A stretch of DNA of 49,350 nt from Bacteroidales bacterium (lineage in GTDB: Bacteria; Bacteroidota; Bacteroidia; Bacteroidales; UBA932). The notes beneath the pieces are model-generated. The model saw only the letters and a list, made by a program, of their open reading frames with translations, was not told the DNA's origin and did no database searches. Position numbers and translations under genes: made by a program. The stretch is taken from the NCBI GenBank assembly GCA_024398125.1, contig JAKSJO010000019.1, positions 1 to 49,350 of the forward strand. Reading direction: 5' to 3'. This document shows, piece after piece, positions 12,726-30,013 of this stretch. How positions within the stretch are numbered: position 1 is the stretch's first letter; every line of letters begins with the position of its first letter.

Positions 12726-15700
12726 CTTTCTTTGTCTTTGCTGAAACAAGTGAATAAACAACAGGAATCACGAATCCGTTCAGCAATGTAGAGCTTATGA
12801 GTCCTCCAAGAAGGACCTTAGCCATAGGGCTCTGGATTTCATTTCCTGGCAGTTCTGAACCGATGACCAGAGGAACAAGAGCGAGTGCCGAAGTCAGGGC
12901 CGTCATGATGATAGGATTGAGACGGTCAAGGGAGCCTGTACTGACAGCTTCGCGGAGCGACATTCCTCCCGCACGCAGGTCATTGTATCTGTCGATAAGC
13001 AGCATTCCATTTCTGGTAGCGATACCGAAAAGTGAAATGAAACCGATAATTGCAGGAATGCTGAGAATGCCATCGCTGAAGAAGATGGTAAGCACACCAC
13101 CGATAAGCGCAAGAGGCAGGTCGATGAGTACGATGGCACTCTGGCTAAGGCTCTTGAACTGGCCATATAGAAGAAGGAAGATCACAATCAGGGCGAATAG
13201 AGTCGTGATGGCAAGCGTCCTGGTTGCACTCTGGGCGCTCTCGAACTGTCCACCGAACTCTATGCGATAGCCCTCCGGAAGCTCGACTCTCTCCGCGATT
13301 CTGTCCTGCATGGCATCGACTGTACCCTGAAGGTCTCCCCCACTGACATTGGCGGAAACGACGATCTTGCGCTGGGCGTTCTCGCGATTGATGGTATTCG
13401 GACCGGCGGCCGAGCGGACGTCTGCAACCCAGCTGAGCGGAACCTTGCCGTCTGGGGTGTCGATGGTCATATCCTTTATGGTCTCTATGCGGTCGCGATA
13501 TATTCCGGAAGCCTTTACGGTCAGGTCGAACACCTTTCCATCCTCGTAAACCTGGCTGACAGCACGTCCTCCAAGGCAGACCTCGACATACTCAGCAAGC
13601 TCCGCCGGCGAGATGCCATAGCGGGCAAGCATTTCTCTTCTTGGGGTAATCAGGAGCTCAGGACGTTCAATCTGCTGCTCGACATTAAGATCTTCGACCC
13701 CAGGAATGTCCGCAACTGCGGCCTTTATCTCGTTACCAAGGGTAAACATGCGATTCAGGTCAGTTCCAAATATCTTTATCGCAATAGCCGACTGGGTTCC
13801 TGAAAGCATGGCGTCAATTCTATGAGATATAGGCTGACCGATCTCGACATTGACGCCCGGGAGCGAACCAAGCTTCTCGCGAAGCTCTGCTGTCACTTCC
13901 TCCTTGGAGCGCTTCCCCAGTTTGAACGGAGCCTCGAGCTCAGATGCATTCACGCCCAGAGCATGCTCGTCGAGCTCCGCACGGCCGGTCTTGCGGGCCA
14001 CGGTCTGGATCTCCGGGACACTCAGTATCAGTTCCTCAGTACGTCGACCGATATTGTCACTCTCCTCAAGAGAAACTCCTGGAAGAGTACCGACATTGAT
14101 TGTAAACGAGCCCTCGTTGAATGCAGGCAGAAAGCTTCGTCCGAATCCGAGCATCATGACAACTGCCATGACGAGGAAGGCTGCAGACACACCAAGGACT
14201 GCCCTGCCATGGCTGAGAGCCCAGTCAAGACCGCGTCCATAAACCTTCTTCAGCCAACGTGTAAAGCCAGGTTCACGCGCACTGCGCTCAGTTGCACCGG
14301 TGTTCTTCAGCAGGAAGCTGCAAAGCACAGGAGTAAGCGTAAGAGCGACGAATGTGGATGCAAAGAGAGATACTATGAATGCAATTCCAAGAGGAATGAG
14401 CATTCGGCCCTCGATGCCGGAGAGGAAGAACAGCGGCACGAAGCTGGCAACGATGATGAATGTCGAATTAAGAATAGGCATACGGACCTCGCGGGAAGCC
14501 TCGAACACCACGTCAAGAACCTTGCGGCGTCTGTCTGCCGGCAAGGCATGGTTCTCTCTGAGACGCTTGTATACGTTTTCTACATCAACAATCGCATCAT
14601 CGACCAGCGATCCTATCGCAATGGCCATACCTCCGATGCTCATGGTATTTATGCTCAAGCCTGTGAGACGAAGCACGATGATGGTTATCAGCATCGCGAG
14701 CGGAATGGTAACAAGCGAAATAAGGGTTGTACGTATGTTGAGGAGGAACAGGAAAAGCACGAGAACAACGAAGAATGCACCCTCGAGCAAAGCCTTCTTG
14801 ATGTTTCCGATGCTGGCATCGATGAAAGTGCTCTGACGGAAGATGTCTGTCTTGATGTCGATGTCTGCAGGGAGGGTCTTTGCCATGTCAGCCAGCTGAG
14901 AGTCCAGATTCGCAGTAAGTTCCTTGGTCGAAACATTCGGCTGCTTTGTGACTGTCAGGATTACAGCCGGTTTGGTTTCGACAGAAGCGGTTCCCATTCG
15001 AGGTTCCTTCGGGCCGATTCTTACTTCTGCGATATCGCGAAGTGTGACCGGATGCTTTGATAGACGGCTTACGACGGTACGTTCAAAATCTTCGATACTG
15101 GTTGTTGATGTCATGCCGCGGATGATATACTCATTTGAATACTCATACAGCACTCCACCCGCCGCATTTCTGTTCATGTCATCAGTCGCTCTTAAAACAT
15201 CATCGACGCTGATGCCGAAACGGCGCATCTTCTCAAGATCGAGAAGTATCTGGTACTCCTTGATATCGCCGCCAAGGACTGCCACCTGGGCCACACCGCC
15301 AGTTGCGAGCAGCTGGGGGCGGATGGTCCAGTCAGCCAAGGTCCTGAGCTGCTCCATATCGGTTTCTCCGTTGGCGGTGAGTCCGATGATGAGCACCTCT
15401 CCAAGGATGGATGACTGAGGTCCGAGAGTAGGATTGCCGACATTTGCAGGGAGCTGCTCGCCTACTGCAGCAAGCTTCTCGGAAACAATCTGGCGTGCAC
15501 GGTAGATATCCGTGCCCCAGTCAAACTCCACCCAGACAACGGAGAAACCCGTAGTCGACGACGAACGGACACGGCGGACATCGGTCGCACCATTTACTGC
15601 GGTCTCTATCGGGAATGTAACTATCTTCTCGACCTCTTCCGGAGCCATGCCGTTCGCTTCGGTCATGATGACCACCGTCGGAGCATTAAGATCCGGAAAC

Positions 15701-15813
15701 ACGTCAACCTCCATGTTGGAGCTGACATACAGGCCTCCTATTACAAGCAGAACCGCCGCCAGCAGCACTGCAAGCCTGTTACGCAGTGAGAAACTGATAA
15801 TACTGTCCAGCAT
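12712..15813 (-). CDS. Heavy-metal RND efflux pump (CusA/CzcA family)
   Basis: A 1033-aa inner-membrane transporter with the standard RND plan: TM1 at residues 10-30, two large periplasmic loops, and two blocks of TM helices (about 335-530 and 860-1025). The TM4 motif AIGSLVDDAIVDVENVYKRL is typical of the heavy-metal (HME) branch; its paired Asp residues include the proton-relay Asp. It resembles the HME5-type signature more than the copper/silver one, so the metal is not assigned. ATG at 15813 was chosen, 4 bases after the adaptor stop; the longer frame to 15864 overlaps the adaptor. It exports metal ions from periplasm or cytoplasm using the proton gradient. Confidence 0.93.
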   Translation of the reverse strand: MLDSIISFSLRNRLAVLLAAVLLVIGGLYVSSNMEVDVFPDLNAPTVVIMTEANGMAPEEVEKIVTFPIETAVNGATDVRRVRSSSTTGFSVVWVEFDWGTDIYRARQIVSEKLAAVGEQLPANVGNPTLGPQSSILGEVLIIGLTANGETDMEQLRTLADWTIRPQLLATGGVAQVAVLGGDIKEYQILLDLEKMRRFGISVDDVLRATDDMNRNAAGGVLYEYSNEYIIRGMTSTTSIEDFERTVVSRLSKHPVTLRDIAEVRIGPKEPRMGTASVETKPAVILTVTKQPNVSTKELTANLDSQLADMAKTLPADIDIKTDIFRQSTFIDASIGNIKKALLEGAFFVVLVLFLFLLNIRTTLISLVTIPLAMLITIIVLRLTGLSINTMSIGGMAIAIGSLVDDAIVDVENVYKRLRENHALPADRRRKVLDVVFEASREVRMPILNSTFIIVASFVPLFFLSGIEGRMLIPLGIAFIVSLFASTFVALTLTPVLCSFLLKNTGATERSAREPGFTRWLKKVYGRGLDWALSHGRAVLGVSAAFLVMAVVMMLGFGRSFLPAFNEGSFTINVGTLPGVSLEESDNIGRRTEELILSVPEIQTVARKTGRAELDEHALGVNASELEAPFKLGKRSKEEVTAELREKLGSLPGVNVEIGQPISHRIDAMLSGTQSAIAIKIFGTDLNRMFTLGNEIKAAVADIPGVEDLNVEQQIERPELLITPRREMLARYGISPAELAEYVEVCLGGRAVSQVYEDGKVFDLTVKASGIYRDRIETIKDMTIDTPDGKVPLSWVADVRSAAGPNTINRENAQRKIVVSANVSGGDLQGTVDAMQDRIAERVELPEGYRIEFGGQFESAQSATRTLAITTLFALIVIFLLLYGQFKSLSQSAIVLIDLPLALIGGVLTIFFSDGILSIPAIIGFISLFGIATRNGMLLIDRYNDLRAGGMSLREAVSTGSLDRLNPIIMTALTSALALVPLVIGSELPGNEIQSPMAKVLLGGLISSTLLNGFVIPVVYSLVSAKTKKDETV

Positions 15814-15817
15814 GGCA

Positions 15818-17098
15818 TCAATGGCTATGATTGTGAGCGTGAGGAACAATAGATGCAGAAGCAAGCTTCACCTGATATGCACCAGCGACAACAAGGTCAT
15901 CTCCCTCATGGAGTCCGGAAAGTATCTCCACATTCTCACCGTTGCGCTCTCCGACCTTGACAGGGACCTTCTTGTAGCAGTCCTCGTCCAGACGGACATA
16001 GACGAAGAACTCGCCCTGTTCCTCGGTAAGCGCAGACTCCGGGACAGAAATGACATTGTCCTTCCAGCCGGTAATCAGCCACACCTCGGCATAAGCGCCT
16101 GGCAGGATATCGCCACAGTTGTTGAACTCAAAAGTTATGTGGAGGTACGGAGAATCCGATTCGAGAGCATGAGCGACTGAGATAAGCTTGCCATCCAGCT
16201 CCTCAAGGGTATGAGAGTGGTCACCGTCCGCCATGCGGAAGTTGGCACTGCTTATCGAAGTACGGAGGCTCATGTATTTCTCCGGCAGATCTGCCTGGAG
16301 TCGAAGCTTGCGGTCCTGGGTAACGACACCGACAGGTTCACCGGCAGAAACGAACTCTCCCTCGCTCTTCAGCATCTCTTTGATGAATCCCGCAATAGGA
16401 GAAGTGACGCTGACGCCGCTGGCACCACTGCCGGCAGACACGCCTTCGTAAGAATTCTTTGCCGTAAGATAAGCGGCTTCTATAGCATTGAAGTCTCTTT
16501 CGGAAATGAGTTTTTCGTCGATGAGATTCTTTGCGCGTTCATATTCCTTAAGCGCTGCCTGGTATTCGATACGGGTACGGGTCACGATATCTCCTTCGGC
16601 CATGCTGCCACCAGAAACACGCGCTACACTCTGTCCCTTTGCGACCTGCTGACCGGGAGCCGGTGTACGCCCGCCAAAGCTAAGGATTCCGGATGTACGC
16701 GCAGTAAGATAAGCCTCGCTGCCGCTTGCTGGAAGAATAAGACCGGATGTATGGATGGTTGCATGGAATGGCCCTGGATGAACAACCTCGACCTTGACGC
16801 CAGCCGCCTCCGCTCTCTCCGGCTCGAGAACTATCTCGCCGGCAGCATGGCTTTCGCCTTCATGCTCGTGGTCATGATCTTCATGATCGTGGCCTTCATG
16901 ATCATGATGATGTCCTTCATGTTCGTGGTCATCGTGATCGTGGTCATGATCTTCATGGTCGTGGCCTTCATGATCATGATGATGGATCTCCTCCCCTTCA
17001 TGGGCATGATTATGGCCGGCATGATCACCACAGCCAGCCATAAGGAAAATTGTGCTGCCTATAAGCAGTACAGATAGTATTCTTTTTCTCATATTCAA
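15818..17098 (-). CDS. Periplasmic adaptor of the metal efflux pump with His-rich N-terminus
   Basis: A 426-aa membrane-fusion protein (CusB/CzcB type). It has a lipoprotein signal (Cys23 in LMAGC), then about 60 residues made almost only of His, Asp, Glu and Gly (roughly 25-85), a likely metal-collecting leader. The lipoyl-like and hairpin regions (about 125-235) and beta-barrel domain follow. The protein ends in HAHNHSH, another metal-binding tail. It links the RND pump to TolC and is the first gene of the operon. The leader contains a 24-residue internal duplication. High His with Asp/Glu favours divalent ions such as Zn, Ni or Co over Cu(I), but this is inference. Confidence 0.9.
   Translation of the reverse strand: MNMRKRILSVLLIGSTIFLMAGCGDHAGHNHAHEGEEIHHHDHEGHDHEDHDHDHDDHEHEGHHHDHEGHDHEDHDHEHEGESHAAGEIVLEPERAEAAGVKVEVVHPGPFHATIHTSGLILPASGSEAYLTARTSGILSFGGRTPAPGQQVAKGQSVARVSGGSMAEGDIVTRTRIEYQAALKEYERAKNLIDEKLISERDFNAIEAAYLTAKNSYEGVSAGSGASGVSVTSPIAGFIKEMLKSEGEFVSAGEPVGVVTQDRKLRLQADLPEKYMSLRTSISSANFRMADGDHSHTLEELDGKLISVAHALESDSPYLHITFEFNNCGDILPGAYAEVWLITGWKDNVISVPESALTEEQGEFFVYVRLDEDCYKKVPVKVGERNGENVEILSGLHEGDDLVVAGAYQVKLASASIVPHAHNHSH
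16867..16984 (-). repeat. 72-bp-period direct repeat in the His-rich leader
   Basis: Two 46-base copies (16867-16912 and 16939-16984) differ at one base and are offset by 72 bases, that is 24 codons in frame. They encode the repeated HDHEG/HDHED block of the adaptor leader. Confidence 0.85.
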
Positions 17099-17212: not shown

Positions 17213-19384
17213 TTACTTGTCGTAAACGGTGGTGATCACAATCTTGCCGGCCTTCTCGCCTGGAACCACCTTGAGTTCCATGTGACCGGTCACCTTGGTA
17301 CCTACACCAAGCTCGGTGCAGAATGCCTCGACGGTAGGGCCACCGTTGCCGATGAGTTCCTTCTCAGTAAGAGTACCCTCCCAGAGGACAGGACCATAGG
17401 TATGGCTGAAGGTGTAGTCACCTGGCTCGATGTTGTCGAATACGTACTCGTTGACGCCTTCCACAACCATCTGTCTCCAGTCTGCTGCTGAGTAGCCACC
17501 GCGGCCGCGGCCACGTGCGAGCTGGATTTCAGCACCGCGACCCATGGTAGCGGCGTAGTTCTCCTTGTGGCTCTCGGTACCGTTGTCGATAGCCTCAACC
17601 TCGAAGTAGTACTCTGGAGCGGTATTGAGGCTGTACATTGTGAAGTGAGTCTCGTAACCGTAAACGATGTAGCTGTTGTAAAGCTTGTCAGGAGCGATAC
17701 CGTAGCGGATGATATATGCATCAGCACCCTCGACTGGCTCCCAGATGAGAGAAGCGATACGACGGTCCTCCTTGTTGCGTACAGCCTTGAGGTCGGTAAC
17801 CTTGGTGTACTTTGCAACGTCCTTGTTACCGAAGATACGGAGATCCTTGATTGCGAACTTACCGTCAGGGGTAAAGCAGTTGGTAACCTTTACGTATCTT
17901 GCCTGTACGCCGTCCTTGAGCTCGAAGTATCTGTGACGGAAATCCTGGCCGTTCTTGCTGAAGTCGATGATCTTGGTCCAGGTCTTGTTGTCCTGTGAAA
18001 CCTCGATGATGTATGACTGGTACTGATCTGGATAGGTAGCAGGAGCCATGTTTCTCATGCCGCCCATACCTGCAGGCATTGCAACAGGGGTTGGGTCAAC
18101 CTTGTCGATGTTTACCTGGATAGCGTTTACGGTGCAGCTCTGGCCGAGGTCAACGGTGTAGAACTCACCTGGATCGCCGGTCTTTGCTGCCCAGCAGGTC
18201 ATGAAGTTCTCGTCAACACCGAGAGCACCTCTGTGGTTGAGATCCTTCTGGGAAGAAACGATGACGTCCTTGCCCTTTGAAAGAAGAGCCCAGCCGGTGT
18301 AGTTGTTGTAGACTGCATCCTTGGCAACTCCTGGAAGGAACTGAGGGTAGTCACCGAGCTCATAGTTTGAGTGCATGATGCCATCCTCGTCAACTGCGGT
18401 AGGATACATGGCGAGCTCGCTGCTGCCACGACCTGGGCCGTATGAGCTAGGGATCATGCAGATGGTCCAGAGCTGGCCGTTCTTGTCATGGAAGGTGCTG
18501 CCATGGCCTGCGCCGACCTGGTAACCGGTAACCTTGAAGGTGAGAGGGTTGCTCTCAGAATAGGTGTAAGGTCCCATAGGATGGTCTGCTACATAAACAC
18601 CATGTGAGTATGAAAGGAACTCAAGACCGATGGCTGCATACTGGAGATAGTACTTGCCATTGTGCTTTACGACGTACGGACCCTCAATCCAAGGAAGCTC
18701 CTCAGGGAAGTAGTCACGATAGCCGTTGAAGATAGAGTAGATGTTGTCATGAGCCCAGCGGGTCTCGAAACCATGGTTGTTGATGTCGCTGAAGAAAAGG
18801 GTATTCGGCTCGCCGATCTCCTTGAAGGTCTTAGGATCGAGCTCGACAACCTTGAAGCACATGAGCTGTGACCAGCCGTAGAACATGTAGAGATGACCAT
18901 CATCATAGAACATGTTGGCGTCACCGTAGCGGTTGCTGTCGAGGGTACCGCACTGATACCATACACCGCTCTTAGGATCGTCGGTAGTATAGACATTGTA
19001 GTTGTTCATGGAGCAGCCGTAAAGCTTGCCTTCGATTTCAACTACAGAAACGACTCCACCTGGGTAGTTTGGAGCTGAAACATATGTCCAGTCACGGAAG
19101 TTGTCGGAATACCAGTACTCCTTTCCGTGGGAAACAAAGAGATAGTAGGTGTCTTCGAAAGTGATGACAACAGGCTCACCGCCTCTTCTTGCAGTCTGGT
19201 TGTCGACTACGAGGTCAAGAGGGTTACAGAAGGTGATAGGGCCATCATCGTTGCTGAGACGTACCTGGAACTCAGGGTAACCCTCAGTTGGAGGAGTAGG
19301 ACACTGAGCAACCGGTCCGTTGCCGCATGAAACTGCAGCCATTGCGGCAAGAGAAAAAGCCGCAAGAACAAATGGTTTTCTCAT
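17213..19384 (-). CDS. GH43-type glycosidase lipoprotein with F5/8C and Fn3 domains
   Basis: A 723-aa protein with a lipoprotein signal (Cys20). A five-bladed GH43-like propeller (about residues 50-370) is followed by an F5/8 type C carbohydrate-binding domain (about 400-530), an Fn3-like domain (about 535-610) and a C-terminal domain of unknown type. The general-acid Glu is in LPWIEGPYVVKHNGKYY, and the pKa-setting Asp in YGDANMFYDDG. Where most GH43 enzymes have the Asp base (xDPxV), this one reads GGEPVVI, so the base may be Glu or the enzyme may be altered. Predicted role: cleaving arabinose or xylose residues from plant polysaccharides at the cell surface. It has only a weak own -7 box (TATCTTTA, 19423-19416). 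Confidence 0.88.
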   Translation of the reverse strand: MRKPFVLAAFSLAAMAAVSCGNGPVAQCPTPPTEGYPEFQVRLSNDDGPITFCNPLDLVVDNQTARRGGEPVVITFEDTYYLFVSHGKEYWYSDNFRDWTYVSAPNYPGGVVSVVEIEGKLYGCSMNNYNVYTTDDPKSGVWYQCGTLDSNRYGDANMFYDDGHLYMFYGWSQLMCFKVVELDPKTFKEIGEPNTLFFSDINNHGFETRWAHDNIYSIFNGYRDYFPEELPWIEGPYVVKHNGKYYLQYAAIGLEFLSYSHGVYVADHPMGPYTYSESNPLTFKVTGYQVGAGHGSTFHDKNGQLWTICMIPSSYGPGRGSSELAMYPTAVDEDGIMHSNYELGDYPQFLPGVAKDAVYNNYTGWALLSKGKDVIVSSQKDLNHRGALGVDENFMTCWAAKTGDPGEFYTVDLGQSCTVNAIQVNIDKVDPTPVAMPAGMGGMRNMAPATYPDQYQSYIIEVSQDNKTWTKIIDFSKNGQDFRHRYFELKDGVQARYVKVTNCFTPDGKFAIKDLRIFGNKDVAKYTKVTDLKAVRNKEDRRIASLIWEPVEGADAYIIRYGIAPDKLYNSYIVYGYETHFTMYSLNTAPEYYFEVEAIDNGTESHKENYAATMGRGAEIQLARGRGRGGYSAADWRQMVVEGVNEYVFDNIEPGDYTFSHTYGPVLWEGTLTEKELIGNGGPTVEAFCTELGVGTKVTGHMELKVVPGEKAGKIVITTVYDK

Positions 19385-19430
19385 AAATTATTAATGTTAA
19401 TGGTTTTTCGGACTTTAAAGATAGATAATT

Positions 19431-20045
19431 TCATTCAAGAATCCTATCTATGTAGAGAATTCCGTCAAGATGATCGCACTCATGCTGGAAAATCACAGCC
19501 GTGAAACCCTCAACGAGCTCTTCCACAGGCTCCAAGGAGACCGGATCGGTATACATTAGCCGTATCTTGGAATACCTTTCCACTTCACCTCTCATGTCAG
19601 GAACAGACAGACATCCCTCAGATCCAATCTGCCTCTCATCCCCCACCGGCTCGATGTGGACATTCGGATACACCTCGAAAGGCTCCCCTTCCTTGTCAAA
19701 ACGCTGTACGGCCACGACGCGTCGGAGTATGCCGACCTGAGGGCCGGCGATTCCGACTCCATCCTGGGATGGGTCGGTAACGGTAGCCACCATGCGTCCA
19801 GCCAGAATTGCATACTCTTCGCTGCGAAGATCCTCATCGATGAAGAATGTGCTCTTGGAGCGCAACAGAAGCGAGTCCGCCTCATTGTCGATGGTAGTGA
19901 CACGCATAAGCCCTTCTCCATTCCGGATCAGGTTCAGTTCCTCAGCCGTCAATGGCTTCGCTGCATAAGGATCAGTCGAACAGGCTAAAAGAACAAGAGG
20001 CAGGGCCACGATAATCGAGGCCCTGCTGATAAGACTGGAAATCAT
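19431..20045 (-). CDS. def: Peptide deformylase-like lipoprotein (exported)
   Basis: A 204-aa polypeptide deformylase fold with a lipoprotein signal: residues 1-22 end in LVLLACS, Cys22. All three active-site motifs are present: GVGIAGPQ (96-103, usually G-L-A-A-P-Q), EGCLS (143-147, metal ligand Cys145) and QHECDH (187-192, His188, Glu189, His192). Deformylases normally act in the cytoplasm on nascent N-formyl-Met chains; an exported copy must have another substrate or role. The ATG at 20045 lies one base after the stop of the esterase gene, so the two are coupled. A longer frame to 20135 only overlaps the esterase. A second, housekeeping def gene is expected elsewhere in the genome. Confidence 0.85.
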   Translation of the reverse strand: MISSLISRASIIVALPLVLLACSTDPYAAKPLTAEELNLIRNGEGLMRVTTIDNEADSLLLRSKSTFFIDEDLRSEEYAILAGRMVATVTDPSQDGVGIAGPQVGILRRVVAVQRFDKEGEPFEVYPNVHIEPVGDERQIGSEGCLSVPDMRGEVERYSKIRLMYTDPVSLEPVEELVEGFTAVIFQHECDHLDGILYIDRILE

Positions 20046-20046
20046 C

Positions 20047-21165
20047 CTACTTGAAGATTTTCTGTGCGAACTCGTGGAATGACTTTCTCCAAACCTGCCA
20101 CTCATGGTCTCCTGGGAATGAGTTGAAGTATACATCCACGCCTGCCTGCTTCATGTTGTCGGTGTACTTCTTGGTATGAGAGATACGAGGATCCTGCTCA
20201 CCGCATGAAATATAGAACACGTCGAGACCCTTGTTGAACTTGTCAGTAGCGGAAAGCATGCCTGGAACTTCCTTCTCGAGATCGAGGTTGGCGCCCTGGA
20301 TGCCACCGAAGATGCCGGAGCTGAAGATACCGATGTTGCGGAAGAGCTCTGGATGTACAAGACCGATGTAGAAGGTCTGGCCGCCACCCATGCTGAGGCC
20401 GCACATTGCGCGGTTTGCTGCACCTGGCTTAACACGGAACTGACCCTCAACGAATGGAATGATGTTCTCGATGAGCTCCTTAGAGTATGCAGCCATGCCC
20501 TGCTGAGAATAGCCACCGCCGCCAGGGACATTGCTGTTCACGCTGACAACAATAGCCTCGGTAGCCTTGCCAGCAGCGATGAGGTTGTCCATGATGTTTG
20601 CGGTACGTCCCTGCTCTACCCAGCCGCGATGATCCTCGCCGCCACCATGATGGATATAGACTACAGGATACTTCTTCTTGCCCTTCTCATAGCTGGCAGG
20701 AGTGTATACGAAAAGCGGTCTCCAGCTGTTGGTCACATTAGAGAAATAGCGCAGTTCGCGTACCTGTCCGTGAGGAACCCTTGCGGTCTCGAAATCGTCG
20801 CAGCCCTTTTCCGGGATGTCGATGGCGCTCGCCATGCGGCTGGTGCCATAATAGCTCTCACTTGCCGGATCTGCAGTGCTGACGCCGTCAACAACGAGGC
20901 TGTAATAATGGAAACCGGGAACCTGCGGATCGGAAACGCCCTTCCACATACCGTTTTCATCGCGGGTAAGGTCATACTTCTTGCCGCAGAGGTCGATCTG
21001 GACACGCTGTGCCTCAGGAGCACGGAGCTGGAACTCAACGCGGTTGTCAGGAAGGATGTGAGGATAGCCGTTCTGGTTGATGTTGGTTACCGGAATGGTG
21101 TAATTCTGGGCCGATGCACCCAATGCGATGCATGCGAGACCTACACTGAGGATAAACTTATTCAT
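20047..21165 (-). CDS. Exported CE1-like esterase with N-terminal E-set domain
   Basis: A 372-aa protein: signal peptide (MNKFILSVGLACIALGASAQ), an immunoglobulin/E-set-like domain (about residues 22-118), then an alpha/beta-hydrolase of the esterase D / CE1 type. The nucleophile is Ser258 in GLSMGGG, with the oxyanion region YIHHGGGEDHRGW; the catalytic Asp and His are likely in SCGEQDPR and PGDHEWQVW. Relatives remove feruloyl or acetyl groups from xylan. It lies between the PriA-like gene (28 bases upstream) and the exported deformylase (1 base downstream), all on one strand. The start at 21165 fits the signal peptide. Confidence 0.88.
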   Translation of the reverse strand: MNKFILSVGLACIALGASAQNYTIPVTNINQNGYPHILPDNRVEFQLRAPEAQRVQIDLCGKKYDLTRDENGMWKGVSDPQVPGFHYYSLVVDGVSTADPASESYYGTSRMASAIDIPEKGCDDFETARVPHGQVRELRYFSNVTNSWRPLFVYTPASYEKGKKKYPVVYIHHGGGEDHRGWVEQGRTANIMDNLIAAGKATEAIVVSVNSNVPGGGGYSQQGMAAYSKELIENIIPFVEGQFRVKPGAANRAMCGLSMGGGQTFYIGLVHPELFRNIGIFSSGIFGGIQGANLDLEKEVPGMLSATDKFNKGLDVFYISCGEQDPRISHTKKYTDNMKQAGVDVYFNSFPGDHEWQVWRKSFHEFAQKIFK

Positions 21166-21193
21166 GTAGTTATTGGTTTTGGTTATCAATTAT

Positions 21194-23176
21194 CTATAGC
21201 GGATCCACATCCAGGTGGATATCACATCGGCGTTCCCTGGCGAACTGCATGACTATATTCTTCATGCCTTGTTTTCTCGCCGCCAATCCGCGATCCTTCG
21301 GCAGGACGACGCGGAGTTTCCTAATCTGGGAACTGCCAGGCTTTTCATATTCAGGCGGCATAGGTCCTTCCAGATCTACCCCATGCAAGGCTGAAGCCAA
21401 CTGCTGGCCGAGCTGGAAAGCAAGTGATTCCAGAGCTTCAGCATCGCGTCCACGCAGTATGATGTCCACAAGCCTTGAATACGGCGGATAGCTGAACTCC
21501 CTACGCTCATCCAAAAGTTTGGAACACAGGTCTTCATTTCCCATGAGGGCTTTGTAGACTGGATGATCTGACTGTGCGCTCTGTATCATGAACACAGGAG
21601 TCATTTCTTTCTCTGACGAGCCAAGCCGCGAACGGAACAATTCCAGTGTCTGCAAGGCATACTCATCTGCGCGGAAGTTCTGGCGCGCAACCATCTTGTC
21701 GGGCTGCATGACGCACAGAAGGTCAATGCGGCTCAGGTCTGCATGCCGTGACGATATCAGGGTTCCTACCACGATATCCGCATCGACACTGTCAGGATCG
21801 CCTATTGCATTATCGGGAAAAACGACCTTCAAATCATTGATGACGAAGTCTACCCTTCCCCATGCACGGAGCAGCATCACGCGTCCGCCCATGCTTATTG
21901 TACGTGTCATCTCGGCAATGAGTTTCCTGGAAAGGCAGCCAACCATGCCATTCTTCTTCACTTCAGCACGCGTATCTACAAGCTGAACCTCAGGCATGCA
22001 GCGCTTTTCACCGAGATCCGAATCGATCCGGACATATCTGCCACCCATACAGTTAAAGACCGATTCGAGGGATGGAGACGACGATGACAAGAGCAATCGC
22101 GCCCCATGTATTGACGCCAGCATGGAAGCCATATCGCGTGCATTGTACCGTGGAGTGGAATCCTGCTTGTACGAGGCATCGTGCTCGTCATCGACAATGA
22201 TCAGTCCGAGATTGCTGAATGGAAGAAAGATGGAGGATCTGGTGCCAAGGATAACGACAGGTTCGCCTTTACGCAGCGTTTCGGACATATCACGACGGAC
22301 CGATTCCGACTTGGATGAGTTGAAGGCAATCAACCTGTCTCCAAACTCTTCGATGAGACTGTCCTCAAGTCTCTTTGACATGGCAATCTCAGGTACCAGA
22401 ACAAGAGATTGACGGCCTTTGTCCAGTTCCCTCCGCAGCAATTCCCTGTAGACCTTTGGGCGGATTCGTTCCTGAATATCCAGCAGCACGGTCTTCCCGT
22501 CCTTGAATACACTTTCTATCCTGTCGACCAGTTCCGACGCAGCATTCTCCCAGACAAGACCGAGACGCGCGTCTTCCATGACCGGTGGGTTTTCCGACCG
22601 TTCAAGGGAATCGATCCTGAGATTGACGGCACGGATCTCGTCCAATATCTTCTTCCAGGCAGCATTCAGCTCCGCCGTCACCTTCTCATTGTGACGTTTT
22701 TGAAGTTCTTTCTCCTTTCTGGCCAATCTGTCCTGAAGCCTGGCAAGGCGGGAACGAAGAAGTTCTGCAGCCTTTCTAACAGCTTCCTCATGACGCTGGC
22801 GGGCGCGGATTCCTGCCTCTTCTTTATTTATACGGTTGCCTGGATAAGCCTGATGATATACCTCCCCTATAGAACACATATAATAGTCAGCCATGAAGCG
22901 CCATAGCTTGATCTCTTCCGGACTGACGGAAGGCAGACCAGTTTCAATGCGAGATACTGGAAGAACCTTTGCTTCAGGAATTGCAGGAGTATCGCTGACA
23001 TTGCTGACGACCCCCACATAGGTTCTGGGACCGAAACGGACTGAAATACGGTCTCCAACAGAAACTTCACGACAAGGAAGCATATCTGCATCACCCGAAC
23101 CTACCATGGCATAATACCACGGTTCCCAGTCCAGCCTGAGAGGGAGGATCACCTGCAGAAAGCGTTTTGAGGCCAT
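21194..23176 (-). CDS. priA: PriA-like primosomal protein lacking helicase motifs
   Basis: A 660-aa PriA relative. The N-terminal 3' DNA-binding domain (1-105), a coiled charged linker (120-190), the helicase scaffold (about 225-540) and the C-terminal domain (FSYPPYSRLVDI onward) are recognisable. The ATPase residues are gone. Walker A (normally GVTGSGKTE) is replaced by DIQERIRPK at 233-241. The DEEH box reads DDEH (329-332), and GSATPS reads SSSSPS. The zinc-binding Cys region is deleted after residue 445. The GRAGR arginine finger is replaced near 514-518. VLVPEIAMS and GTRSSIFLPF persist. The frame is intact, so it is not simple decay. The start at 23176 was chosen because the longer frame runs through tRNA-Phe. 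It probably acts as a loading platform, not a helicase. Confidence 0.85.
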   Translation of the reverse strand: MASKRFLQVILPLRLDWEPWYYAMVGSGDADMLPCREVSVGDRISVRFGPRTYVGVVSNVSDTPAIPEAKVLPVSRIETGLPSVSPEEIKLWRFMADYYMCSIGEVYHQAYPGNRINKEEAGIRARQRHEEAVRKAAELLRSRLARLQDRLARKEKELQKRHNEKVTAELNAAWKKILDEIRAVNLRIDSLERSENPPVMEDARLGLVWENAASELVDRIESVFKDGKTVLLDIQERIRPKVYRELLRRELDKGRQSLVLVPEIAMSKRLEDSLIEEFGDRLIAFNSSKSESVRRDMSETLRKGEPVVILGTRSSIFLPFSNLGLIIVDDEHDASYKQDSTPRYNARDMASMLASIHGARLLLSSSSPSLESVFNCMGGRYVRIDSDLGEKRCMPEVQLVDTRAEVKKNGMVGCLSRKLIAEMTRTISMGGRVMLLRAWGRVDFVINDLKVVFPDNAIGDPDSVDADIVVGTLISSRHADLSRIDLLCVMQPDKMVARQNFRADEYALQTLELFRSRLGSSEKEMTPVFMIQSAQSDHPVYKALMGNEDLCSKLLDERREFSYPPYSRLVDIILRGRDAEALESLAFQLGQQLASALHGVDLEGPMPPEYEKPGSSQIRKLRVVLPKDRGLAARKQGMKNIVMQFARERRCDIHLDVDPL

Positions 23177-23193
23177 TATTTCAGCGTTTTTTA

Positions 23194-23201
23194 CAAAAAT
23201 A
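23194..23201 (-). promoter_or_regulatory. -7 box TATTTTTG of the priA-like gene
   Basis: Perfect TAnnTTTG on the minus strand, 17 bases before the ATG and divergent from the tRNA-Phe promoter. Confidence 0.5.
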
Positions 23202-23212
23202 AACAAAATAAA

Positions 23213-23243
23213 TTTGGAAGAAATAAAATAATACCTATCTTTG
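23213..23243 (+). promoter_or_regulatory. Promoter of tRNA-Phe
   Basis: TTTG (23213-23216), 19-bp spacer, TATCTTTG (23236-23243): an exact Bacteroidota-type promoter, with the same geometry as that of tRNA-Cys. Confidence 0.8.
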
Positions 23244-23260
23244 CAATCCCGAACAACAAC

Positions 23261-23333
23261 GGTGCTGTAGCTCAGATGGTAGAGCAATGGACTGAAAATC
23301 CATGTGTCGGCAGTTCGATTCTTCCCAGCACCA
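23261..23333 (+). tRNA. tRNA-Phe (GAA)
   Basis: A 73-nt cloverleaf with acceptor GGTGCTG/CAGCACC, D-stem GCTC/GAGC, anticodon stem ATGGA/TCCAT and loop CTGAAAA giving anticodon GAA. The T loop is TTCGATT. The T stem (GGCAG/CTTCC) has one C-T mismatch at positions 51-63. CCA is not encoded. Confidence 0.95.
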
Positions 23334-23340
23334 CAATCGC

Positions 23341-23370
23341 AACCCTTTCCTTTATGGAAAGGGTTTTTTG
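23341..23370 (+). terminator. Terminator of tRNA-Phe
   Basis: Perfect 10-bp stem AACCCTTTCC/GGAAAGGGTT with a 5-base loop, followed by TTTTG. It lies 8 bases after the tRNA. Confidence 0.9.
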
Positions 23371-23387
23371 TTTTAAGCCAAATCAAG

Positions 23388-23395
23388 TACCTTTG
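23388..23395 (+). promoter_or_regulatory. -7 box TACCTTTG of the GH97 gene (near-leaderless)
   Basis: Perfect TAnnTTTG ending 5 bases before the ATG at 23401, so transcription would start at or next to the first codon. A TTTG 17 bp upstream lies in the T run of the tRNA terminator. Confidence 0.6.
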
Positions 23396-23400
23396 CATCC

Positions 23401-25374
23401 ATGAAAAGAACGATCTTGATAATTGCCACCGCCCTGTCGGCCTGCCTTGGTCTTCACGCCCAGGAATACAGAATCAAATCCCCAGACGGGCATATTTCCG
23501 TTTCCATAAAGAACTTTGAACTGCTTACATATTCCGTACAGCTGGATGGAAAGACTGTCATTTCCGACTCCCCCATGGGTTTTGAATTCAGGGACGAGAA
23601 GGACATGAACGGAGATTTTGCCGTAAAGAACGAAGCTTCCGTAAAGAGCGGGGTAGAAAAGTGGACTCCTGTCGTAAAGAGCAAGCACAGCTATTGCGAA
23701 GTCCCTTATAACGAACTCACCCTTGCGCTGCAGGAAAAGAGCAGCGGCCACAGGAAGATGGATCTCTCTTTCCGCGTCATGAACGATGGTGTAGCATTCC
23801 GCTACGGACTGTATGGATCCTCCCTGATGGGAAACCGTGAGATAACAAGAGAGATCACCGGCTATTCGATTCCTGAAGATTCATATCTGTGGATTCCCGA
23901 CTATGCCTATGAGCAAGGCGGGAAGAGTTACAAGTCATCCCAGGAAGGCGTTTTCGAGAAGACCCCTGTCAAAAGCATCAAGAACGACATCCACGCCGGT
24001 CTGCCTGGTCTTATCGAGATAGACAGCAACAACTGGCTGGCGATCATGGAAGCCGACCTTGACAACTTCCCGGCTTTCTATCTCGGCAGAAGCAAGGCTG
24101 CCAGCAATGGATTCCAGATGCTGGACACAAAGCTCACCCCTGTTTGGGGCAACGACGAAAGCGGGGCCAAGGCTCGTTTCGACGAAGAGATCAGTTCCTC
24201 ATGGCGCGTCATAATGGTTGGACATAATCCAGGCAAGTTCATCGAAAGCGAAATCCTCCGTTCACTCAATCCGGACTGCGTCATTGACGACCCATATTGG
24301 ATCAAGCCAGGCAAGAGCGCCTGGGACCATTGGTGGAGCGGCGAGGTAAAGATGGACCAGGATGAAATCAAGAAATACATCGACTTTGCATCAAGGGAAG
24401 GATGGCAGTATATGCTTATCGACTGGACCTGGTATGGTCCATACAACGTCCCTGAAGCCGACATCACGAAGCCTGCGCCTCAACTCGACATGCCTGCAAT
24501 AATCAGGTACGCCAACGTACATGGCGTGGACATCTGGCTTTGGCTCAGATGCGAGGATGCAAACAACAACAACCAGTACAAGGAGGCGTTTCCTCTTTAT
24601 CGCCAGTGGGGCGTCAAAGGTGTGAAGATAGACTTCATGGACCGCGACGACCAGGATATGGTCAACTGGTACAGAAGAATCATCAAGGCCGCAGCAGACA
24701 ATCACCTCATGGTGGATTTCCACGGCGCCTACAAGCCAGACGGAATCGAGAGGACATATCCGAACGTGATGACCCGCGAGGGTGTCATGGGTGCAGAGTA
24801 CTACAAGTTCTCGGACAAGATGACCCCTGAGCATAACGTAACTCTGGCATATACCAGACTGCTCGCCGGACAGATGGACTATACTCCTGGAGGATTCCTC
24901 AACGTGACAGCGGAGAATTTCAGGCAGCAGAGCCCTACCCTGGTTTCAAATACACGCGCTGCAGAGCTTGCGAAGTTTGTGGTTTATGAGAGTCCTTTCA
25001 CCGTAGTATGCGATAATCCTGACAACGTGTATGGAAAGGTTGGAGAAGATTTCATACGCGTAGTGCCAAGCGCATGGAGCGACGTTCACTTCCTTGGAGG
25101 CACTCCTGAGAGCTATGTGGCAGTTGCAAAGCTTCACCACGATTTCTGGTTCATAGGAGCTATAAACAACAGCGTTGAAAGAGATGCCTCACTCGACATG
25201 TCATTCCTTCCCGCAGGAACATACAGGCTTGAATACTGGAGAGACGGAAAGAAGACAGGCAAGACTCCGACCGTATGCGAACATGGATTCACAAGAGTGA
25301 CGATAGGAAAAGACAAGAAACTTCCTATAAAGATGGCAAAGGGCGGCGGTTACGCCGCAATCATATGGAAGTAG
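23401..25374 (+). CDS. GH97 glycosidase (alpha-galactosidase/alpha-glucosidase family), exported
   Basis: A 657-aa protein: signal peptide (1-20), GH97 N-terminal beta-sandwich (about 22-280), catalytic barrel (290-560) and C-terminal beta domain (565-657). In the barrel, Asp411 of VKIDFMDRDD occupies the place of the catalytic nucleophile of retaining GH97 alpha-galactosidases, and Glu460 in TREGVMGAEY is a candidate acid/base. The inverting SusB-type enzymes use a different Glu base, so the retaining type is favoured here (inference). It acts in the periplasm on alpha-galactosides or similar sugars. It is a single gene between two terminators. Confidence 0.9.
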   Translation: MKRTILIIATALSACLGLHAQEYRIKSPDGHISVSIKNFELLTYSVQLDGKTVISDSPMGFEFRDEKDMNGDFAVKNEASVKSGVEKWTPVVKSKHSYCEVPYNELTLALQEKSSGHRKMDLSFRVMNDGVAFRYGLYGSSLMGNREITREITGYSIPEDSYLWIPDYAYEQGGKSYKSSQEGVFEKTPVKSIKNDIHAGLPGLIEIDSNNWLAIMEADLDNFPAFYLGRSKAASNGFQMLDTKLTPVWGNDESGAKARFDEEISSSWRVIMVGHNPGKFIESEILRSLNPDCVIDDPYWIKPGKSAWDHWWSGEVKMDQDEIKKYIDFASREGWQYMLIDWTWYGPYNVPEADITKPAPQLDMPAIIRYANVHGVDIWLWLRCEDANNNNQYKEAFPLYRQWGVKGVKIDFMDRDDQDMVNWYRRIIKAAADNHLMVDFHGAYKPDGIERTYPNVMTREGVMGAEYYKFSDKMTPEHNVTLAYTRLLAGQMDYTPGGFLNVTAENFRQQSPTLVSNTRAAELAKFVVYESPFTVVCDNPDNVYGKVGEDFIRVVPSAWSDVHFLGGTPESYVAVAKLHHDFWFIGAINNSVERDASLDMSFLPAGTYRLEYWRDGKKTGKTPTVCEHGFTRVTIGKDKKLPIKMAKGGGYAAIIWK

Positions 25375-25395
25375 GGGCCTTGGCCAGGAAAAAGG

Positions 25396-25422
25396 AATCC
25401 CGGGAGTCGGACTCTCGGGATT
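25396..25422. terminator. Bidirectional terminator between GH97 and the VKOR fusion
   Basis: An 11-bp stem with one G-U pair (25396-25406/25412-25422), preceded by AAAAAGG (Ts for the minus strand) and followed by TCTTTAT, between convergent genes. Confidence 0.8.
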
Positions 25423-25425
25423 TCT

Positions 25426-26550
25426 TTATAAGATCTGTTCGAGCAATTGCCTCAGCTCCACGGCAGACGAAGCTTCAGGAACCAGCCACTGCTGTCCCGA
25501 TATGAGTCTTGGGATGCCGCTGTGACCTTCCGATGTGGTCCTGCCGAAAAGTTCGAATGCAAGAGCAAGATACGAATCTATCCATGGATCGGACAAGGCC
25601 TCGGACAGTCTTGCCTCCCCTATCAGAGACACTGCTTTTTCACGAGCCTCGGAGACGGGTCTAGGCAGCCAGGCATCATCTCCATAGCCAAAGAGCCAAT
25701 GATCGAATTCAAAGAACTTCTCATGTTCTGCTGTCCACACCGCCAATGCCAGACGGGCAAGATCACATGACCCTGTGAAACGGTCCTCGACATCTCTCGG
25801 AATATATGGATTGCAAGAAGGGCTTAAAGGTGACGGACAAAGGACAAAAGCGATGTCTCCATCAGCTGCGATTTCCTCAAGCCAAGGATGCATGGTACGG
25901 CAATGCGAGCACTGATAATCGAAAAGTACTTCCACGACACGAGATGCATCAGGATTGCCGATCACGGGAACATCCATACCTTCCGTTGTCGGAAGATCTT
26001 CCTCGACAAAACCGGAATCATAGATGGAGTCCGGTGCGGTCAGAGCATGCACGGCGGCAAACAAAATACCGGCAGCTGCACCTCCAAGCATCCACAGACG
26101 AGCCTTACCGTCACCGAAAGATCTATAGATCACAGCCAGGGAGATGATTATTCCGACAGCATGAGTCGCCATGCAGTATCTACAGAACTCGCGGACAGCG
26201 AACAGCTGCAGAGCGATGAACCACAAAGATGCCACCAGCACAGCGCCGGCGACAGCCTGCATGAAAGATTGCGCCATCGACCTCAGTTCTTCATCATCCG
26301 ATACAGCGCAGGCAATGCTGCAAATTATGAATGCAAGATACAGTCCGGCAGCCGGAAGGCTAACAGGCAGGACTCCGAAAAGATTCGACCACCTGCTGCT
26401 CATCACGGAATCACATGACGAGCCGGCAGAACAGCCGATCATTTGGGTTCCGCTCATGGCATGCACAGCCATGAATGTACATAAAGCCAAGGCAATGACA
26501 CCGAGAAGCGTCATTGCCCAGGCAAAAGATCTATCCGCAGTCCGCTTCAT
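25426..26550 (-). CDS. VKOR-DsbA fusion, membrane disulfide-forming enzyme
   Basis: A 374-aa fusion. Residues 10-170 form a vitamin-K-epoxide-reductase domain with about five transmembrane helices. It has loop cysteines Cys40 and Cys46, the active-site CRYC (Cys123/Cys126) and the conserved W-S-N-L-F-G segment. Residues 195-374 are a periplasmic DsbA/thioredoxin-type domain with CSHC (Cys214/Cys217). The DsbA part oxidises cysteines in exported proteins, and VKOR passes the electrons to quinone, doing the work of DsbA plus DsbB. The gene starts 9 bases after the GH54 stop on the same strand, so the two are probably cotranscribed; GH54 enzymes carry several disulfides. Confidence 0.9.
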   Translation of the reverse strand: MKRTADRSFAWAMTLLGVIALALCTFMAVHAMSGTQMIGCSAGSSCDSVMSSRWSNLFGVLPVSLPAAGLYLAFIICSIACAVSDDEELRSMAQSFMQAVAGAVLVASLWFIALQLFAVREFCRYCMATHAVGIIISLAVIYRSFGDGKARLWMLGGAAAGILFAAVHALTAPDSIYDSGFVEEDLPTTEGMDVPVIGNPDASRVVEVLFDYQCSHCRTMHPWLEEIAADGDIAFVLCPSPLSPSCNPYIPRDVEDRFTGSCDLARLALAVWTAEHEKFFEFDHWLFGYGDDAWLPRPVSEAREKAVSLIGEARLSEALSDPWIDSYLALAFELFGRTTSEGHSGIPRLISGQQWLVPEASSAVELRQLLEQIL

Positions 26551-26559
26551 CGATGCGGA

Positions 26560-29500
26560 CTAGTACTTGTTAGGAGCTCCAGGAGTAGCAGCATAGTTGA
26601 TGACTGCTGTTCCATTCGCATGAGAGTGCTTGAGTGGGTAAGCGAGACCGATACCTGTTCCACAGAACTCGGTTCCAGCCTTGACCGCACTCTTGAGAGG
26701 TGCTGCAAGAACAACGACATCGTTAGGTCTTGGACCTGCATTTTGAGGGCCCCAGCGGCGTGGAGCCGGCTTGACCGCCTCGACCATGCATCTGATGCCG
26801 CCGATGCTTGCCTCCTGACCGGCTACGAAGCCTGCTGAAGAAGCGACCTCGATGGAAGTGCTTCCTGCAGCTGCATCCTTGGCAAGAGTGGTTGCACCTG
26901 CGGTACCGATGGTAGCGGCGATAGCCTCTTCACGGGCAGAACCCGCACCGATGACGATGCGCTGTCCCCTCTTGAGGTCAGGAACCGATGTAACCTTGAT
27001 GTTGGTGCATCCTGCAGGTGCCGGAGCACAGATGTTGACTGAAATCTGGTTGGTGAAGTCCTTCTTGTTGTCATCGGTGTCAAGACCGTCCATGATACGG
27101 CCGACGCTGATCTCAGGAGTAGCGTTTACAGGGTTGTTGACATAGCCCCAGGCGAACGCGCCACGAGGAGATGGAGCCGGAGCGTAGCTTCCGTCTTCGC
27201 CTGCACCTGCGCCGCCATGATAGCCTTCGCTGAGCCATGGATCCACAAGACCGCCATAGTTGACAACGTCTACAACATTGCCGTTTGCATCACGGAGAGT
27301 GATGTTGCCCTGGTGGTTGTCAAGAGCCGGGCCACCATAGAGCTGATCTGCAGGAACGTCGGCGATGTAGCCGGCGCCTGTTGCCTTTGCATCAAATACC
27401 ACGTCATCGATGCCGTGTGCATTGCCGAGGGCCTCATCGAGCTCGATCGAGTAGACAAGCGCGAGGACAGGCTCATTTGATGAATGAGGATACTTGGTGG
27501 CAGGCTCGAATGAGATACCTGTTCCGTTCACGCTGTACGGCATGTTGGAAGCATGGTTGTACTTGAGAGGCTTGGTGAGGGTAAGACCTGTTCCCTTGTC
27601 CTCATTTGGCTTGAGCGGTCCGTTGAGTGTGTTGCGGACTGATGGTGTACCGACCTTCTTGACGGTAACCCACTCGATTCCGTGGCCCTGGCTGTCGATG
27701 TCGAGACGGATCTTGTCGCCGGCGGTTATGTTTTCGGTAGATGAAACATAGATGACCTTGTCACCCTTCTTGGCATCCATAGAAAGATATGCCTGGGTTC
27801 CTGGTTTGCCGACCTTGGTGACTGTAACGACCTCGTACTTCTCCATTGTATTGGATACGGCAGGATAGGTTGCGCCATAGCCGATAGCCATCTTGTCGCC
27901 AACCTTGAAATGCTGGGTGCTGGTTACAGGGATGTTCTTTGAACCTGCAGGGATGGTGATTACCGGTCCCTCAGGAAGAGGCTGCCAGAGGGTGGTAGGT
28001 GTACCAGGAGCGATTGCGCCGCGCATCATCATGCCTGTAGGAGCAGGCTGAGCCTCAGGCTCGTTGACCTTTGCGACCTTGCGCTTCTCGACATTGCGGC
28101 CTGTACCGATCTCGATCTCGTCGCCGGCCTTGATACCCTTGACACTGCGGACATAGATGGTCTTGTCGCCCTTGGCTGCATCAACGGCAAGACCTGAGGT
28201 AGAAAGACCGAACACATAGTAGCTCTTTCCAGCGATCTGGGTGCCGGCAGGAACCTCGATTTCAGAGAAATATGGAACATGTACGGCATGAGAGGTGAGC
28301 TTCCAGCCTGAGATGTCCACAGACTTGTCTCCAGCATTGTAGAGCTCGATGAAGTTGTTGGTGGCATTGCCTTCGCCATCAGCTGCGCGGAACTCGTTGA
28401 TCTTGACCGGAGCCACGTTGCGGATCTTCTGGACAGCGATATCCTTTGCAGCCTTGCCGTCAGCGCCTGTGTACGCTGCAACAGCAACCATGTCACCATT
28501 GAAAGCCCTGTCGCCGCTGGTGACTGAGAAATTGACAACTACTGTCTGGCCAGGAGCAACTGAATAGCCGACCTTCTTTGAGGTCTCGCCTGCGCCCATG
28601 ACGCTTGACTTCCATCCGCGTGGAAGATCGAGCGAGATGACGAGGTCGTTGATGGCTGCACCTGTGGTATTCACGAAGGTGACAGCTGAATTTGCGGTAG
28701 TTCCAGGAGCATAGGTCTGGACGCCGGCAGGCTCGTATGTCTTGTCCGCTGCGGTAACGGCAAGGCGCTGTACATCATAGCGTGCGGCAACGACGTTTGC
28801 CTGGATAGCCTGGTTGGTCTCGACGCTTGGGAAGGTGTTCGGCGCAGTCATGGCAGCCTCGTAGAAGGTACCTGATGATCCGTTCGAATTGTCGCCACCG
28901 TTTCCAAGGAGGATAGCGCCCTGCTTGCGCATAGGATCGTAGCTGTTGCGCTCGTTCTGGATACGCTGACCGTCGTAAAGGGTGATGAGTTCGCCGCTCT
29001 GGGCGTCACCGCCCATGCTGCGCCAATGATGAGGCTCACCGTCTGCGGTAGCGGTCACGAAACGCCAGTTGATGCTTGGAAGGTCTGCACAGTACTTGTC
29101 GTTAGGGTCCGGATTGACACAGCCGACGAGGTTGTTCTCCTGGTCGGTCATGATCCATGGGCCAGGGCCTGAGCCATAGTACCATGATGGCTGATTACCG
29201 AAATAGGTTGTCTCCATGGTACCGTCGCCGTCGTCGCGGCTGTCGGTCTCGGCGTTACCGTAGTCGAAGCAGCAGCCGGTGTTGTAGTGATGGCCGCTGA
29301 TCACCCAGTACTGACCTTCAGCCTGGTCGTCGACAGCCGTTCCCTTGGCATCGTTCCAGCGGAGACCCATGCCGGCGGTGATGAAGATACCATAGACCTT
29401 GTGGCCGCCGAGGGTCACAGGAGCCATGTCTGCGATAGGAAGGTTGTTGAAGCCGCCCATTGCGAGTCCGCTAAAGCCGCCGCGTGGAGCCTGACGGAGG

Positions 29501-29874
29501 TGGTTGGCATTAGGAGACTGGTCGTAGAGGACAGTCACCCAGCAGGTGGTGTTGGCACAGAACTCGTCCTGGGCAGCGGCATCGGCATAGCCGCCCGGAT
29601 CATTGGCAGTTGCCTTGACAACTCCGATGTCCAGTGTCTTGCCGTCAGAGGCACGCATGACCTGGTAGAGAGGTCCATTGTAGCTTGCATAGAGTGCACG
29701 GGTCGAGCTGTGTGCAGCCGCACATGGGGCTCCACCCTTTGCATAGACATCACAAGGACCTTCCGGTCTTGGAAGAGCGTCCTTTGCATCCTTCGCGATT
29801 GCGAAAGAAGCAGCGATGATGGTAGGGGTAAGAACCGCCGCACCGATCAAAGCGATGAATCTGGTCTTTTTCAT
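26560..29874 (-). CDS. GH54 alpha-L-arabinofuranosidase with NEW3, lamin-tail and repeat domains
   Basis: A 1104-aa exported protein with a signal peptide at 1-27. Residues 37-367 match the AbfB (GH54) catalytic domain: GPCDVYAKGGAPC, TRALYASYNGPLYQV, CCFDYGNAE, with catalytic Glu221 (MMETTYFGN-like context) and Asp328 (GGDNSNG). The cysteine pairs Cys41/51, Cys106/111 and vicinal Cys201/202 have the spacing of the three AbfB disulfides. A NEW3-like domain (386-460) follows. A lamin-tail domain begins at 487 (INEF, FIELYNAG, ISGWKL) and seems to resume at about 803-875. Five roughly 45-residue beta modules (563, 636, 698, 957, 994) of pattern V-x-S...G-D/Q-x-I-x-IG are inserted or appended. 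The start at 29874 was chosen for the signal peptide. It removes arabinose side chains from arabinan or arabinoxylan. Confidence 0.88.
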   Translation of the reverse strand: MKKTRFIALIGAAVLTPTIIAASFAIAKDAKDALPRPEGPCDVYAKGGAPCAAAHSSTRALYASYNGPLYQVMRASDGKTLDIGVVKATANDPGGYADAAAQDEFCANTTCWVTVLYDQSPNANHLRQAPRGGFSGLAMGGFNNLPIADMAPVTLGGHKVYGIFITAGMGLRWNDAKGTAVDDQAEGQYWVISGHHYNTGCCFDYGNAETDSRDDGDGTMETTYFGNQPSWYYGSGPGPWIMTDQENNLVGCVNPDPNDKYCADLPSINWRFVTATADGEPHHWRSMGGDAQSGELITLYDGQRIQNERNSYDPMRKQGAILLGNGGDNSNGSSGTFYEAAMTAPNTFPSVETNQAIQANVVAARYDVQRLAVTAADKTYEPAGVQTYAPGTTANSAVTFVNTTGAAINDLVISLDLPRGWKSSVMGAGETSKKVGYSVAPGQTVVVNFSVTSGDRAFNGDMVAVAAYTGADGKAAKDIAVQKIRNVAPVKINEFRAADGEGNATNNFIELYNAGDKSVDISGWKLTSHAVHVPYFSEIEVPAGTQIAGKSYYVFGLSTSGLAVDAAKGDKTIYVRSVKGIKAGDEIEIGTGRNVEKRKVAKVNEPEAQPAPTGMMMRGAIAPGTPTTLWQPLPEGPVITIPAGSKNIPVTSTQHFKVGDKMAIGYGATYPAVSNTMEKYEVVTVTKVGKPGTQAYLSMDAKKGDKVIYVSSTENITAGDKIRLDIDSQGHGIEWVTVKKVGTPSVRNTLNGPLKPNEDKGTGLTLTKPLKYNHASNMPYSVNGTGISFEPATKYPHSSNEPVLALVYSIELDEALGNAHGIDDVVFDAKATGAGYIADVPADQLYGGPALDNHQGNITLRDANGNVVDVVNYGGLVDPWLSEGYHGGAGAGEDGSYAPAPSPRGAFAWGYVNNPVNATPEISVGRIMDGLDTDDNKKDFTNQISVNICAPAPAGCTNIKVTSVPDLKRGQRIVIGAGSAREEAIAATIGTAGATTLAKDAAAGSTSIEVASSAGFVAGQEASIGGIRCMVEAVKPAPRRWGPQNAGPRPNDVVVLAAPLKSAVKAGTEFCGTGIGLAYPLKHSHANGTAVINYAATPGAPNKY

Positions 29875-29984: not shown

Positions 29985-30013
29985 TAGAAACACGAAACCA
30001 ATAACCACACAAT

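Follow-up and report, generated by a model that had tools for sequence, protein, structure and literature searches.

In E. coli PriA, the cysteine-rich domain carries both the docking site for PriB and the unwinding hairpin, and together with the second RecA-like lobe and the C-terminal domain it forms a pore for single-stranded DNA; DnaB loading in vitro is abolished when three positions of the cysteine-rich region are changed to alanine, as reported in PMC10175261. With a K230R form of the protein, which has neither ATPase nor helicase activity, stable DNA replication is still supported, and the damage sensitivity of recG mutants is suppressed when the PriA helicase is lost (PMC7326373). The PriA of Deinococcus radiodurans binds forks and DnaB without ATPase activity, and the same source describes the underlying motif loss for the whole Deinococcus–Thermus phylum (Lopper et al. 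2015, PMC4504706). Actinobacterial PriA has been described as smaller and very divergent (PMC1193525), and in Caulobacter DnaB loading is promoted by DciA, for which the authors of that study consider joint action with PriA possible (PMC9825169). Here, we consider a priA gene (21194..23176, reverse strand) on a 49,350-nucleotide stretch of a Bacteroidales genome (GCA_024398125.1, contig JAKSJO010000019.1, positions 1 to 49,350; hereafter, the window). By profile searches, alignment and motif reading, its product is a PriA ortholog that appears helicase-dead, and we consider it likely that this is the species' PriA turned pseudohelicase, which would still bind forks and serve as a landing platform for DnaB.

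The window gene forms an intact frame of 660 amino acids with a single stop at its end. A preliminary description of this DNA had called it a PriA homologue with an unbroken frame, and both points hold: the protein passes the Pfam models PriA_3primeBD (PF17764; 62.5 bits, cut-off 22.7) and PriA_C (PF18074; 32.3 bits, cut-off 26.9), matches PriA chains in the PDB at 2.5e-36 by phmmer, and is predicted by AlphaFold2 to keep the PriA fold, with its two RecA-like lobes in the PriA arrangement, except for the zinc domain, the winged helix and part of lobe 2. It falls slightly short of the cut-off of the NCBIfam priA equivalog TIGR00595 (217.4 bits, cut-off 230.35) and stays below that of the Pfam DEAD helicase model (22.3 versus 26). 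Along the protein (all coordinates on the reverse strand), the 3' DNA-binding domain (residues 1-112; 22841..23176) is kept, and its Pfam model is matched in all 26 members of an alignment of relatives (A1). There follows a linker (residues 113-204; 22565..22840) made up mostly of long predicted helices (113-192), two of which, H113-159 and H164-192 in the AlphaFold2 model, occupy the position of the winged-helix domain of E. coli PriA. That domain is absent from the window protein, so that the earlier statement that the DNA-binding and C-terminal parts remain stands for the two Pfam domains and not for the winged helix. A similar charged linker is present in at least one intact relative (L026, alignment judged by eye), and the replacement of the winged helix is therefore probably older than the helicase loss. 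The first RecA-like lobe (approximately residues 205-400; 21977..22564, limits approximate) retains its fold and has lost its catalytic residues, the second (approximately 401-555; 21512..21976, from alignment and motif reading) is shortened, and the C-terminal PriA domain (approximately 556-660; 21197..21511) is kept, with PriA_C matched at E 0.01 in just 6 of the 26 members of A1.

The motifs themselves read as first described. The Walker A remnant is DIQERIRPK (residues 233-241; 22454..22480), whose arginine, in an alignment to an intact relative, falls at the former position of the Walker lysine; motif II is DDEH (residues 329-332; 22181..22192), motif III is SSSSPS (residues 364-369; 22070..22087), and the position of the GRAGR finger of motif VI is taken by SRLGSSEK (residues 516-523). 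The zinc-binding cysteine block, reported as deleted, is indeed gone (none of the eight cysteines by alignment to an intact relative), and with this domain lobe 2 has lost motifs V and VI while keeping FRADE. The claim that every helicase motif had been lost proved too broad: motifs I, II, V and VI are lost, but motif Ib (ILGTRSSIF; 22226..22252) and the PEIA motif are well preserved.

Related losses occur in relatives of the window's species. The gene recurs, with these losses and these neighbours, in the sister genome G211, and dozens of further species have related losses. An assembly or binning artefact, for which one could cite the draft state of the genome (2.34 Mb in 49 contigs, 97.6% complete), is refuted by these recurrences. 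For a systematic comparison, we built an alignment with a single protein from each of 129 genomes (105 of the window's genus and 24 of other genera); this is a non-random set, in which reduced members were chosen by short frames or low scores, and three proteins incomplete at contig ends (L066, L098 and L111) as well as duplicate loci were left out of the motif tables. Zinc-block cysteines number 0 in 93 proteins, 1 in 2 and 8 in 34, with no intermediates. We refer to the 95 proteins with 0 or 1 cysteine as reduced and to the 34 with 8 as intact, which makes the absence of the zinc block in the reduced group a matter of definition; two outgroup proteins with the P-loop SSGKT (G406 and G407) are intact by this count. 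The Walker lysine is present in 34/34 intact proteins, while the 95 reduced proteins have arginine at this position in 75 cases, lysine in 13 and another residue in 7, and a gap-free count, taken four residues before a conserved tyrosine, gives the identical tally. Both motif VI arginines are kept in only two reduced proteins (G363 and G411); the arginine and glutamate of FRxxE, the arginine of the ER motif and the proline of PP are kept in all 95. Because the lysine is never lost in proteins with the cysteines and is sometimes kept in those without, the cysteine-rich domain seems, on these alignments, to have been lost before or together with the ATPase. The best example is G363, in which GVTGAGKTE, DEEH and GSATPS are intact while the zinc block and motifs V and VI are unrecognisable or gone. 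Three proteins of another genus, g18 (L198, L199 and L202), have lost the P-loop and zinc block and keep much of motif V, two of them reading GTQTIHKGL there; other reduced groups differ.

To gauge selection on the reduced genes, we used pairwise maximum-likelihood estimates of omega, the ratio of nonsynonymous (dN) to synonymous (dS) change, from a purpose-written script. Between the window gene and that of G211 (78% identity), omega is 0.074 (dN 0.139, dS 1.88), and omega = 1, the value named in the preliminary description as the sign of relaxed selection, is rejected (2dlnL, twice the log-likelihood difference, 486); by domain it ranges from 0.024 to 0.128, with dS at saturation for the linker and also high for lobe 1. 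Across twelve reduced pairs, counting the one with G211, omega ranges from 0.054 to 0.186, and a value of 1 is rejected in each. The losses are shared by orthologues under purifying selection, a pattern that the preliminary description had named as support, and the window gene combines PriA ancestry, loss of ATPase residues and maintenance by selection, which are features of a pseudohelicase of the Deinococcus type. These values largely refute the view that the gene is decaying towards loss as a pseudogene, with restart done by something else, which we regard as very improbable. In its favour, the reduced relatives include some very short proteins, the smallest of 472 amino acids, 6 of the 12 reduced pairs lie above the omega range of three intact pairs (0.050-0.094), and a few near-complete genomes of the genus (among them G032, G234 and G311) are without a match at PriA level even when the reduced profile is used, which may reflect incompleteness or true loss. 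Yet no internal stop occurs among the reduced frames listed, the sole stop noted (G049) being in an intact-type frame, and the 6 of 150 good genomes without a match are close to what incompleteness would lead one to expect. Apparent splits of priA in G420 and G359 proved to be runs of N. In G342 (genome 96% complete), it is an intact-type gene (L319) that has a frame break; this gene retains the P-loop and its four CxxC pairs, and the break falls after lobe 1 and before the zinc region.

The distribution of the reduction was surveyed with the priA model cut-off, which is a proxy only, since a reduced gene with summed pieces can pass it. In the genus, 205 of 400 species lie above the cut-off and 195 below, the latter comprising absent and fragmentary genes as well as reduced ones; in the family, 167/199 genomes lie above it, and all 14 proteins read from four other genera (g12, g13, g18 and g22) are reduced. 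At higher ranks, nearly all genomes pass: 192/197 in the order, where the five weakest best matches belong to the window's genome, to G842, G857 and G920 (at the level of RecG or Mfd) and to G995 (7.0e-66), and 245/247 in the phylum (a sample with only two genomes of the order apart from the window's own), where the two weakest are the window's genome and G699 (1.2e-13). G995 (family f124, 99% complete) may represent a second reduced lineage or a fragment. With G995 left aside as an open case, the reduction appears as a feature of one family within the samples drawn, and because most relatives in the order and phylum score above the cut-off, the conversion is independent of those in Deinococcus and actinobacteria, as the preliminary description had suggested with regard to the latter. 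Most of the closest relatives that bear a name are Bacteroidales assemblies from rumen and gut; Candidatus Cryptobacteroides merdigallinarum, among the relatives matched, has an intact priA, and the window's genus is presumably Cryptobacteroides. One genome (G352) carries two priA genes on separate contigs, one reduced and one of the intact type, which speaks against the two never occurring together; it is 5% contaminated and we left it uncounted as coexistence. Among the titles listed in the open-licence PMC literature, none concerned a Bacteroidota PriA pseudohelicase.

We then asked how often the motor had been lost, using a tree of 11 marker proteins from the rplB region (LG+G4, 1000 ultrafast bootstraps); the marker was sought in 80 genomes, of which 9 had no match and one (G168) a fragment, leaving 70 tips, 43 of them reduced. 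Loss of the zinc block occurred nine times on this tree if no regain is allowed, eight times with nodes below 95 collapsed, and unordered parsimony requires six changes. The window's clade comprises 26 tips, all reduced, with moderate support (92), while a second clade (support 100) holds nine reduced tips and the intact G037. A tree of PriA itself gives eight losses over the 129 proteins and places G037 beside the reduced G363, so a foreign origin of the G037 gene is not indicated; the deep order of this tree is untrustworthy because the reduced branches are long. The change from lysine to arginine falls on five branches of the marker tree, and that from lysine to another residue on two. Where the preliminary description had seen a single protein in one species, the sequences point instead to a loss that has recurred within a single Bacteroidales family, its members mostly from gut and rumen.

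No intact second priA was found in the window's genome, the priA model yielding no further match above 48 bits in this 97.6% complete assembly. None of the outcomes that the preliminary description had named as refuting its reading (an intact priA elsewhere, dN/dS near 1, an assembly error) was thus seen. The other matches to this model are frames of 1088 (C18), 730 (C48) and 730 amino acids (C49), of which the C49 frame is RecG by its own model and the C18 frame, a second match to the recG model, is probably Mfd. Among 70 genomes tested, DciA was matched in all (69 over the cut-off) and RecG exceeded its cut-off in 66, the four below being three reduced genomes (G324, G170 and G218) and one intact (G096). 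A compensating gain of RecG or DciA was considered and rejected, both being present in reduced and intact groups alike. The wide presence of RecG in these genomes does put a fork-remodelling helicase at hand, so that the motor could have been replaced in trans, with RecG or another helicase unwinding the lagging strand while loading alone is left to the reduced PriA; as RecG, the helicase surveyed, was not gained in the reduced group, we think this rather unlikely, and it is compatible with the pseudohelicase explanation, not opposed to it.

In the reading that we favour, the species' own PriA persists as a fork-binding pseudohelicase. It would recognise abandoned forks without ATP through its 3'-end-binding domain, lobe 1 and C-terminal domain, and would act, by homology to PriA and by analogy with the Deinococcus protein, as the landing platform for DnaB, with DciA helping to load. 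Lacking the cysteine-rich domain, it should have no unwinding hairpin, PriB dock or closed single-strand pore of the E. coli type, and would thus act only on forks whose lagging arm is already single-stranded or has been unwound by another enzyme. Several points weigh against this reading. The raised omega in half of the reduced pairs suggests that some relaxation is possible, and since the genome is a draft, a second priA could lie in its missing part. In addition, the effect of the alanine changes in E. coli implies that a PriA without the cysteine-rich region might not load DnaB in the same way; Bacteroidota are not known to have PriB, and its absence would weaken this objection and not remove it. 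The protein might also have become a binder of forks or branches with a job other than restart, such as fork protection or the steering of recombination. The missing cysteine-rich domain and part of lobe 2, which in E. coli help to build the pore and PriB dock (PMC10175261), and the high divergence (within A1, identity to the window protein is 36-42% once the sister is set aside) would fit such a change; the PriA architecture and single-copy status are nonetheless kept, and no other PriA was found in the window's genome to take over restart, so we judge it unlikely. Taken together, the preliminary interpretation is partly supported, and the biology that it proposed, a restart loader without a helicase, is plausible by analogy.

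More tentatively, and with somewhat less than even confidence, we suggest that restart has repeatedly become motor-free in this family, with the cysteine-rich domain and the lobe 2 motifs lost first and the ATPase afterwards (usually through lysine to arginine), leaving a clamp that recognises forks and passes them on to DnaB, together with DciA. If this is true, the pore-and-PriB scheme of E. coli is dispensable for PriA-dependent restart. These proteins bear on the question of why bacteria retain a PriA ATPase that E. coli can spare in the laboratory, which becomes testable by comparison and biochemistry through close relatives with and without the motor, several separate losses and at least one in-between form, G363.

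The surroundings of the gene vary. Across 104 loci of at least 8 kb, def, GH97, GH43 and VKOR genes lie near priA only in G211, and an esterase neighbour is shared with G211 and three further loci; a conserved neighbourhood was rejected, as four neighbours are common to G211 only. In the flanks fetched, about 4-5 kb long, 17/55 reduced and 20/44 intact distinct genes have a parB-like gene, which supports orthology for part of the set, excluding the window's clade. Upstream of priA, the open frame extends beyond 23176 as far as 23398; a tRNA-Phe gene (23261..23334, forward strand) inside this extension bounds the possible start codon and supports a start at 23176. A tRNA-Phe was found in the priA flank at 7 of 14 scanned loci of the window's clade and at 1 of 10 from other groups. 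At L058, L062, L094 and L113-L116, it lies close to reduced priA as in the window, and these species may share a move of priA out of the surroundings with the parB-like gene. Elsewhere, the window holds an RND efflux set (OEP, AcrB and HlyD; 11544-17098) and several glycoside hydrolases (GH2, GH43, arabinofuranosidase, GH97 and GH3; 7541-10582 and 17216-36942), which are the usual equipment of a plant-fibre degrader.

Among known systems, actinobacterial PriA, with its degenerate helicase motifs, is a separate lineage: the best PRK05580 models score 254-268 bits on the window protein, well above the PRK14873 models, which we take to represent the actinobacterial type (four at 43-92 bits, a fifth at 16). 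The E. coli allele priA300 (K230R), deficient in ATPase and helicase, likewise has arginine at the Walker lysine; it differs in being a laboratory point mutant with all other domains, including the cysteine-rich region, intact. The nearest parallel is Deinococcus radiodurans PriA, likewise a PriA ortholog that has lost ATPase and helicase (here, as judged from sequence) and kept its DNA-binding parts, and sharing the change from lysine to arginine, to which the window protein adds a shortened P-loop. The window protein also lacks the cysteine-rich domain, the comparison with Deinococcus covering the ATPase motifs and DNA-binding parts as described in PMC4504706, and unlike the phylum-wide loss reported there, several losses have occurred within one Bacteroidales family, beside intact relatives. 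On present sequences, this is a pseudohelicase of the Deinococcus kind in a new place, more reduced, and arrived at repeatedly among close relatives.
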